From Rathayibacter oskolensis (GTDB lineage: Bacteria; Actinomycetota; Actinomycetes; Actinomycetales; Microbacteriaceae), in the NCBI RefSeq assembly GCF_900177245.1, contig NZ_FXBM01000003.1, positions 408,461-472,460 of the forward strand: 64,000 nucleotides of DNA, read 5' to 3'. Of the stretch, positions 15,854-17,494 are shown in pieces. Numbering within the stretch: position 1 is the first letter of the stretch; every line of letters begins with the position of its first letter. The notes beneath the pieces were generated by a model. It ran no database searches. It was not told where the DNA came from and saw only the letters and a list, made by a program, of their open reading frames with translations. A program made the translations under genes and the position numbers.

Positions 15854-15936
15854 CTAGGGGCTGTCAGGCCGCGCCCTGATGTCGGGATCCGGTCTTACGG
15901 CCGATAAGCCGCTGCGCGAAAGGGCGACAGCCCTAG
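15854..15936. repeat. inverted repeat at the 3' end of the ATPase/nuclease pair
   Basis: CTAGGGGCTGTC at 15854-15865 and GACAGCCCTAG at 15926-15936 pair with one bulged base. The right arm overlaps the stop codon of the nuclease-like gene. It could be its terminator, or mark the edge of the acquired module. Confidence 0.5.
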
Positions 15937-16454
15937 ACTGGGGGCATAGTCACTAACCAAGGGCCTTGCGTCCGTCGCGACGTTCCGACCGTGACGGAAT
16001 CCACGATCGGTTTCAGACGCTTTGATAACGCTATTGCCAGATCGGACGGATCTACAATCGGCACTGCGCGATCTTCGCAATGAAGGACAACCTCGACTCT
16101 GGGGACGATATGGGAGCGGGCGGCAATGCCGCGCTCGTCAGTATCATCTGCTTTGCGGGACGCAATCGCAATCCCTGCGAGTGTTGCCGTGACCTTCTTT
16201 GCCACTGCTGATGCAAGATCGCTCGGTTTTTCGCCAGATGCATTCGGGTGACGATAGTCTTTGACCTCTATGAGTACGACACGAAGATCACTCCCATTGA
16301 GTTGATCGCGCTCGACCGCGACGACATCAACCGCCTTGATTCCATCATGTACTTTCAGAAAGACTGTCGTATAAAACTTCGACGCATCGTACTTGAGCAC
16401 ACTCCAGCCTTCTGGAAAACTAAATTCCGCTCCATCGACGAGAAGGTCCATCAT
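15933..16454 (-). CDS. PD-(D/E)xK nuclease-like protein, partner of AAA ATPase
   Basis: A 173-aa protein with the arrangement of a PD-(D/E)xK nuclease core: a strand with KAVDVVAVE (D43), then VVLIEVKDYR with E63-x-K65, followed by a helix. The spacing D-N19-ExK is normal for restriction-type folds. The later segment HIVPRVEVVLHCED may be the fourth strand. Codon use and base composition are less GC-rich than the flanks (AAG/TTC/AAA mixed with A- or T-ending codons), suggesting horizontal gain. It overlaps the upstream ATPase gene by 4 bp (ATGA), so the two work as a unit. Role in defence is inference; exact family not known to me. Confidence 0.6.
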   Translation of the reverse strand: MMDLLVDGAEFSFPEGWSVLKYDASKFYTTVFLKVHDGIKAVDVVAVERDQLNGSDLRVVLIEVKDYRHPNASGEKPSDLASAVAKKVTATLAGIAIASRKADDTDERGIAARSHIVPRVEVVLHCEDRAVPIVDPSDLAIALSKRLKPIVDSVTVGTSRRTQGPWLVTMPPV

Positions 16455-17494
16455 TCGGCAATTGCATCGAGGAAACGATCGGACTGCGCAAGAGATTCGT
16501 CTAGAATCGCAAGATCGTCGAGTTCCTCGAGATACTCTCCGGATGAGGCTCTGACGCCGTCGCTGCCCTTCGAGAGGGTAACGAACTGCAACGCAGGGAA
16601 GGATGGGTCACCCATTCGCTTGAGAATCTCTAACTCCTTCATCAAGTACAGGCTATGCGTGCCAACAAAAACCTGAACACCCGATCGAGCCAGTTGAGCG
16701 ATGGTCCGAGCCACGTGCCGAAGAACGCGAGGATTCAGATTCGCTTCAGGCTCATCCCAGAACAGAAAGCCACTCTCGAAGAGAGTGCCGTTTGCGATAA
16801 GGCGCGCAAGCATCGCGAGTTTTCTCATCCCCTCGGCGACTAGGGGCATCTCATATTTACCGCCGCCAGTGACCCGAAGGTAGAAGCGGCCTCCCTCCTC
16901 GGCAACGCTTCCGCCGAGCGACTCCTCAAGGGGGGCAAGTAGCCCCCGCACTCGGTCTTGTCGAGGACCACGGCTGAGAGGTAGTCCAAGGAGGATGCAG
17001 GTATCCCGCCACGATTCCTCAAACTCGAGAGTTGTGCGTTCGTATAGCGAAACGAAGCCGGGATAGATCGTGAGCAATTCGCGCGTCGGGAGATAGACCG
17101 GGGTTCCCTCAATTGCTCGCGATAGGCGCCCGGAGAGGTTGACCTCGCTTCGAGAATTAGTTGCAAACGAGAAAGAAATATTCTGACGTGGTCCCGTGAA
17201 CTGCACGTCGACCTCCGCCCGCCCTCGTCCGGGGCGTCGCCGAACCAACCGACCGAGTGATTCCGGTCGGAAAACTCCAACCAATTTGGAAGCAATCTGA
17301 CTCTCGGGGCTTACCGCTAACGTGTCGCGGGCGGGTTCGGACGCGGATAGCACTGAATACATAGCCTTCAGCACGTGTGACTTACCGGCGCCGTTCTCGC
17401 CAGCAAAGATGTTGATGCCGTCGACCAACGGAAGGTTCAGGTCAGAGAAGACGGTGAAGTCCTTAAGGTGAATACGACTGATTTTCGTGGCCAC
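16451..17494 (-). CDS. AAA-family (AAA_21/OLD-like) ATPase
   Basis: A 347-aa ABC/SMC-like ATPase without transmembrane or TOPRIM part. Seen: IHLKDFTVFSDLNLPL, Walker A GENGAGKS (32-39), a signature-like AEGMRKLAML (221-230), Walker B FLFWDEPEANLNP (243-255) and switch GTHSLYLMKEL with His280. This is the AAA_21/AAA_15 pattern found in OLD, RloB-associated and PARIS-type defence ATPases. GTG start at 17494 gives MATKISRIHLKDF. It is the first gene of the pair with the PD-(D/E)xK-like protein. Low GC relative to its neighbours fits acquisition. A defence role is inferred from family and pairing. Confidence 0.82.
   Translation of the reverse strand: MATKISRIHLKDFTVFSDLNLPLVDGINIFAGENGAGKSHVLKAMYSVLSASEPARDTLAVSPESQIASKLVGVFRPESLGRLVRRRPGRGRAEVDVQFTGPRQNISFSFATNSRSEVNLSGRLSRAIEGTPVYLPTRELLTIYPGFVSLYERTTLEFEESWRDTCILLGLPLSRGPRQDRVRGLLAPLEESLGGSVAEEGGRFYLRVTGGGKYEMPLVAEGMRKLAMLARLIANGTLFESGFLFWDEPEANLNPRVLRHVARTIAQLARSGVQVFVGTHSLYLMKELEILKRMGDPSFPALQFVTLSKGSDGVRASSGEYLEELDDLAILDESLAQSDRFLDAIAE

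Follow-up and report, generated by a model that had tools for sequence, protein, structure and literature searches.

What is a two-gene pair of low guanine-plus-cytosine (GC) content doing between a hydrolase gene and an epimerase gene in Rathayibacter oskolensis? The pair lies in a 64,000-nucleotide stretch of contig NZ_FXBM01000003.1 (positions 408,461 to 472,460 of the forward strand; assembly GCF_900177245.1), hereafter called the window, and encodes an ATPase and a small protein. Judged by its sequence, the pair is a member of HEC-02 (Hma-embedded candidate 02), a candidate system already catalogued in PADLOC. We read the locus as a stand-alone HEC-02 cassette that would serve phage defence, with the ATPase sensing infection and unleashing a nuclease, and we give this reading a probability of about 0.65. 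The two genes are as follows.

17494..16451, minus strand: ATPase gene (347 amino acids, GTG start), HEC-02 ATPase, ABC/OLD-type (AAA_21)
16454..15933, minus strand: small protein gene (173 amino acids, ATG start), HEC-02, predicted PD-(D/E)xK nuclease

The open reading frame (ORF) calls bear out both coordinates and the 4-bp overlap between the genes, as described in the original prediction. HEC-02 is recognized by a match to an ATPase model and an adjacent match to a small-protein model, and both are found here. Specifically, the ATPase matches PADLOC model PDLC04146 ('HEC-02B') with an E-value of 4.4e-128 across residues 6-344, and the small protein matches PDLC04145 ('HEC-02A') at 5.1e-26 across residues 9-149. 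Among the best 25 of 133 PADLOC families for the ATPase, the top match outside HEC-02 is AriA (1.4e-19), followed by GajA (8e-13) and PtuA (1.3e-11). For the small protein, all five families matched at E-values up to 1 belong to HEC-02. These matches rule out the earlier description of the pair as an undescribed module, and dyads of OLD-ABC and PD-(D/E)XK proteins are also in print, as the available text of PMC12839542 attests. Thus, what is known is that HEC-02 is catalogued, and what is new is this additional member, which was read well from raw sequence.

HEC-02 is a catalogued and little-studied family of candidate anti-phage systems. According to the accessible portion of PMC12988326, several Hma-embedded candidates have antiviral activity, HEC-06 among them, with the others not named there. 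Our literature search, made without the source preprint (bioRxiv 10.1101/2024.01.29.577857), which may have tested HEC-02, found no experimental test of this system. The PADLOC component labels A and B are swapped between PDLC04145/PDLC04146, which match in the window, and PDLC04213/04214 and PDLC04215-04230, which match in plasmid relatives. One A and one B component nevertheless still stand side by side, although the swap could mislead readers of the component names.

Several features agree with the assignment of the larger protein as an OLD/AAA_21-type ATPase. It matches the Pfam families AAA_21 (8.1e-19), AAA_15 and SMC_N, and the structural neighbours of its predicted model include SMC, Rad50 and PtuA. 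The hallmarks of ABC ATPases (Walker A, Walker B with the catalytic glutamate, and the H-loop histidine) are all kept in 22 of 22 rows of an alignment that includes the window and a relative designated G222, and from which loci L008, L020 and L021 were left out. The conserved segments are listed below, with the rows counted in this alignment.

17378..17401, minus strand: Walker A, GENGAGKS, residues 32-39; G32, N34 and K38 invariant in 22 of 22 rows
16748..16762, minus strand: Walker B, FWDEP, residues 245-249; identical in all 22 rows
16652..16660, minus strand: H-loop, THS, residues 279-281; T279 and H280 identical in all 22 rows
16475..16504, minus strand: residues 331-340 in the C-terminal tail, a candidate segment for docking; L331, E333, Q337 and R340 invariant in 22 of 22 rows

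The AlphaFold2 model of the ATPase as a lone chain has a predicted local distance difference test (pLDDT) score of 85.9, with values below 50 over residues 330-338 and 340-343. From its conservation, the tail at residues 331-340 is a candidate docking segment for the small protein.

Is the small protein a nuclease? It carries the D-N19-ExK core noted at the outset, in the form D43-x19-E63-V-K65. A Pfam scan of the protein returned no family, a sequence search returned no solved relative, and the profiles of the ATPase and the small protein show no relation to each other. Its AlphaFold2 model, with a pLDDT of 91.3, has an alpha-beta core in which the motif lies on two adjacent strands, as in PD-(D/E)xK proteins, and its structural neighbours include EndoMS. 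In an alignment of 23 rows, which covers the window and G222 and omits L008 and L022, D43, E63 and K65 are present in all 23 small proteins. This count is biased, IEVKDYRH having been one of the search patterns, and the 23/23 invariance of that peptide was dropped as evidence.

Because the small-protein search pattern contained IEVKDYRH, we relied instead on the ORFs that follow ATPases recovered when plasmids, viral contigs and genomes were searched with the ATPase alone. Among 22 such loci, a motif-bearing ORF follows the ATPase in 18; there is none in L071, and L078, L079 and L081 are fragments. The 18 ORFs represent 17 distinct proteins, including one (L057) that is a 72-amino-acid shortened copy of that in L058. 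A [DE]..ExK arrangement is present in 16 of the 17, with E as the first residue in two of them, and the remaining protein (L076) has D..ExR. The ExK pattern, drawn up with the family already in view, is absent from all 37 neighbour ORFs with lengths of 150-260 amino acids and turns up in 315 of 8500 shuffles. The residues in question are as follows.

16326..16328, minus strand: Asp43, first acidic motif residue; identical in all 23 rows, and D or E in each of the 17 distinct partners recovered through the ATPase
16248..16271, minus strand: IEVKDYRH, residues 62-69, with Glu63 and Lys65; ExK in 16 and ExR in one of the 17 distinct partners recovered through the ATPase

On the basis of the confident fold prediction and these conserved residues, the small protein is probably a PD-(D/E)xK nuclease, as had been proposed. 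The original prediction had named loss of the nuclease residues in homologues as a finding that would count against it, and they are conserved. It had also held that the effector is neither HNH nor TOPRIM, which agrees with the exclusively HEC-02 matches in PADLOC and the lack of a Pfam family.

The pair is not confined to this genus or phylum. The search with the small protein yielded 23 loci, spread over Actinomycetota, Pseudomonadota, Binatota and other groups. An ATPase match adjoins the small protein in 22 of the 23, and a 4-bp overlap is possible in at least 10 of these 22. The two genes form an operon and in most cases stay together. Broken members occur in L008, L020 and L022. In L021 (Arcanobacterium, 7983-8486) the small protein is an orphan, and the HEC-02 ATPase model finds nothing in that genome. 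From five plasmid records, 10 proteins were scanned and every one matches a HEC-02 model. A tree of the ATPases places the window, G222 and L001 in one supported group (99/100), with no order among the three.

The neighbourhoods of some relatives suggest defence. We scanned 118 ORFs from the 23 loci (up to 3 per side, at least 170 amino acids), 10 singly and 108 together; the pooled scan lists the best 25 of 28 families. Hma genes lie beside the pair in 3 of the 23 loci (HmaA, HmaB and HmaC in L010; HmaB, in two pieces, and HmaC in L004; HmaA and HmaB in L006, from Tepidimonas ignava DSM 12034). Thus, the family does occur in Hma operons, the origin of its name, a setting that we do not demand of every member. 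In L001 (Microbacterium sp. VKM Ac-2870), the closest named relative, the next chosen ORF downstream of the pair is a CBASS cyclase; the 118-ORF set also holds a second CBASS cyclase with a 2TM/SAVED effector, without assignment to a locus. Separately, ORFs upstream of the pair in L015 (an Acinetobacter metagenome-assembled genome, 1760-5397) match a prokaryotic Argonaute (pAgo) model (6.1e-21) and mad3 (5.6e-30). At the other loci, no match among the families listed is tied to a locus, mad3 aside. We dropped mad3 matches as evidence of defence, as one ORF in the window, probably an ABC transporter at 46269-47102 (ABC_tran 2.2e-30), gives such a match too.

Relatives are also found on eight plasmid records, and in three of these the pair lies between BREX genes. 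Annotated BREX genes flank it in Methylomonas pLM6 and Polaromonas pPNAP01; in Sphingobium pTomMM15c its place within BREX genes was judged by gene order and sizes only. The other five records have no BREX annotation nearby, and one of them has a restriction-modification gene and toxin-antitoxin genes in the vicinity. Two further arrangements were observed among these five. In L071 (Sulfuricystis pSTJ2, 7983-9011) the ATPase adjoins an N-6 DNA methylase gene and has no small partner, and in L070 (Pseudanabaena pPg_01, 5432-13589) the pair is part of a co-directed run with GrpE, Hsp70, DUF1257 and another AAA ATPase. Overall, the wider family spans BREX and Hma operons and plasmids of several phyla. 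The HEC-02 match, together with the Hma, BREX and CBASS contexts of some relatives, makes the proposed anti-phage role of the window pair likely. The window copy itself lies outside any Hma operon or BREX locus, according to a PADLOC scan of the 46 other ORFs in the window.

How did the pair come to occupy this position? The flanking genes, the inserted segment and a repeat that had been proposed to mark the 3′ end are listed below.

15018..15791, minus strand: alpha/beta hydrolase, left of the insertion site; Pfam Abhydrolase_1 4.6e-23, syntenic in L048-L053 and L046
15859..17618, no strand: inserted segment relative to the empty sites of relatives, ends approximate, from the L028 alignment and junction comparison
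17710..18729, plus strand: NAD-dependent epimerase, right of the insertion site; Pfam Epimerase 1.3e-24, 80-91% identity in eight relatives
15858..15933, no strand: 8-bp inverted repeat (arms 15858-15865 and 15926-15933), chance level

When 398 sampled genomes from the family to which L001 belongs were searched for the epimerase, eight orthologs with 80-91% identity were recovered; it is these syntenic orthologs that place the window in Microbacteriaceae. In six of the eight relatives, hydrolase and epimerase are adjacent with about 150-215 bp between them and no insert, compared with 1918 bp in the window. Similarly, L028 aligns back to back with 14455-15858 and 17619-20238. In G384 (L047, 7971-11770) no hydrolase match lies beside the epimerase, and repeat-containing, secreted-looking ORFs are found there, the first without a Pfam match. 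The 1562-bp pair has a GC content of 0.556, whereas windows of the same length outside the pair average 0.724 (standard deviation 0.018, minimum 0.688), and third-position GC is 0.61 in the ATPase gene versus about 0.93-0.94 in the flanking epimerase. Thus, the pair is a stand-alone copy of low GC content at a site that is empty in six relatives, which upholds the claims of lower GC than the surroundings and of a solo insertion. The inverted repeat, in contrast, was dropped as evidence for a 3′ boundary, as it is at chance level: when the window is cut into consecutive 120-bp segments, 146 of the 533 contain a comparable repeat.

The pair is also rare. ATPase carriers number 2 of 398 sampled genomes at E-values up to 1e-30 (G001 and G222 only), and 4 of 369 and 2 of 396 at up to 1e-40; each count includes the centre genome, and with at most the best five candidates scored per genome some carriers may be missed. 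A pair present in all relatives with normal GC would have spoken against the proposal, and neither is seen.

Of the two carriers among the 398 genomes, one, G222 (L046, 7867-9428), has its pair at the junction of hydrolase and epimerase that is occupied in the window, just before a conserved TGTCAA upstream of the epimerase, and six relatives with epimerases more similar to that of the window have an empty site. The G222 proteins are 78% and 63% identical to those of the window, its pair has a GC content of 0.561 versus 0.71-0.73 in the flanks, and third-position GC is 0.61 in its ATPase gene versus 0.89 in its epimerase. This could reflect a single insertion with repeated losses, or two separate hits on one site. 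Two independent arrivals would fit better than one old insertion because both ATPase genes retain a third-position GC of 0.61 beside GC-rich epimerases, and recent arrivals are for the same reason favoured, although not proven. Synonymous divergence (pS) between the window and G222 is 0.81-0.83 for the pair and 0.46-0.52 for the flanks, a contrast that cannot date the insertion because the high third-position GC of the flanks lowers their ceiling. TGTCA occurs on both sides of the insert in the window and could be a target duplication; in G222, none was seen on the left side. A bolder and doubtful proposal is that PARIS-like modules land repeatedly at this junction as stand-alone units with no integrase beside them, although no search aimed at integrases or transposases was made in the window, and that the PD-(D/E)xK protein is a release-type effector docked on the ATPase tail.

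What might the two proteins do together? For the window copy, we infer a defence role in which an SMC/Rad50/PtuA-like ATPase would assemble as the sensor and hold the small nuclease, perhaps via the conserved C-terminal tail. A signal of infection, such as a phage anti-restriction protein (the part that Ocr plays for AriA of PARIS), would free the nuclease, which would then cut nucleic acid and stop the phage, and probably the cell too. A PARIS-like switch of this kind seems to be the best single mechanism, with direct restriction in the manner of Septu as its main rival. In that alternative, one ATPase-nuclease complex recognizes and cuts invading DNA, as in Septu- or McrBC-like systems, and no separate release occurs. 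Because PtuA is the defence protein that aligns best with the ATPase model among those listed, we weighted direct restriction up and the release mechanism down; the absence of AriA from the 50 entries listed for that model excludes nothing. Direct restriction is still unlikely in our judgement, as a protein of 173 amino acids leaves little room beyond the core for a DNA-recognition domain, and the nucleases linked to OLD-ABC ATPases are read in the available text of PMC12839542 as a backup effector layer of suicidal endonucleases.

Could the same parts serve something other than defence? The pair might be an addiction or toxin-antitoxin cassette, in which a nuclease toxin is held by the ATPase, the genes are kept because their loss is harmful, and defence is a side effect. 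The relatives on eight plasmid records, two of them near toxin-antitoxin genes, would suit this explanation, as would the Pfam description of AAA_21 as a putative AbiEii toxin. A plain addiction cassette would not be expected inside Hma and BREX operons, and the ATPase is not a small labile antitoxin, making this option improbable. Least probable is that the nuclease serves DNA repair or housekeeping alongside a Rad50/RecF-like partner. The SMC_N match, SMC and Rad50 among the neighbours of the ATPase model, and EndoMS among those of the small protein hint at such a role, but the rare and patchy distribution, the aberrant GC content and the empty site in relatives all argue against it.

The remaining contents of the window are recorded briefly here. 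The PADLOC scan of the 46 other ORFs gave three matches, one to mad3 (1.5e-29), as discussed above, and two to RT-Protease_XI models (1.3e-16 and 8.4e-16), the latter perhaps just an ordinary protease. No RNA family was found in the window at gathering thresholds. A tRNA-Ala (CGC) call at 39110-39205 on the minus strand overlaps the same-strand predicted ORF 38663-40078 and may be false.

Among known systems, PADLOC HEC-02 is the closest, as adjacent proteins match its models; the difference is that some relatives are Hma-embedded and the window copy is not. This clean stand-alone copy, with empty-site relatives for comparison, also resembles the OLD-ABC and PD-(D/E)XK-REase dyads of BREX, which comprise the same two protein types, a likeness by type rather than by family comparison (PMC12839542, available text). 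HEC-02 pairs are themselves found between BREX genes on plasmids, whereas no BREX locus surrounds the window copy. In the accessible part of the same paper, pairings of a nuclease with an OLD-ABC ATPase in BREX and related systems span at least 1242 taxa, and in 594 of these HNH, PD-(D/E)XK or PIN partners take the place of TOPRIM (Rakesh and Krishnan, 2026; PMC12839542).

Septu (PtuA/PtuB) differs in that the small protein here has no PtuB or HNH match in Pfam or PADLOC. Gabija (GajA/GajB) differs in that the 347-amino-acid ATPase has no TOPRIM match and its neighbours are a hydrolase and an epimerase, with no match to the GajB helicase in the PADLOC scan of the 46 other ORFs. PARIS (AriA/AriB) likewise joins an ABC ATPase and a small nuclease in two genes, and we take the two-gene ATPase-DUF4435 unit of Salmonella to be PARIS. 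That unit lies in a BREX locus (PMC9009780, available text). According to the portion of PMC12409363 at hand, AriA keeps AriB sequestered up to the binding of a phage trigger, which may activate AriB and not simply release it. The difference from PARIS lies in the effector, predicted to be PD-(D/E)xK rather than TOPRIM (PADLOC and Pfam scans of the small protein found no AriB-type TOPRIM partner), and in the ATPase, which matches AriA at 1.4e-19 versus 4.4e-128 for HEC-02. Thus, the pair would work like PARIS with PD-(D/E)xK in place of TOPRIM without being a member of PARIS. The wider family lends support to a view in which a single type of ABC sensor serves as the chassis for interchangeable nuclease effectors, and this locus opens a precise question: does a PD-(D/E)xK effector replace TOPRIM in a PARIS-like switch?
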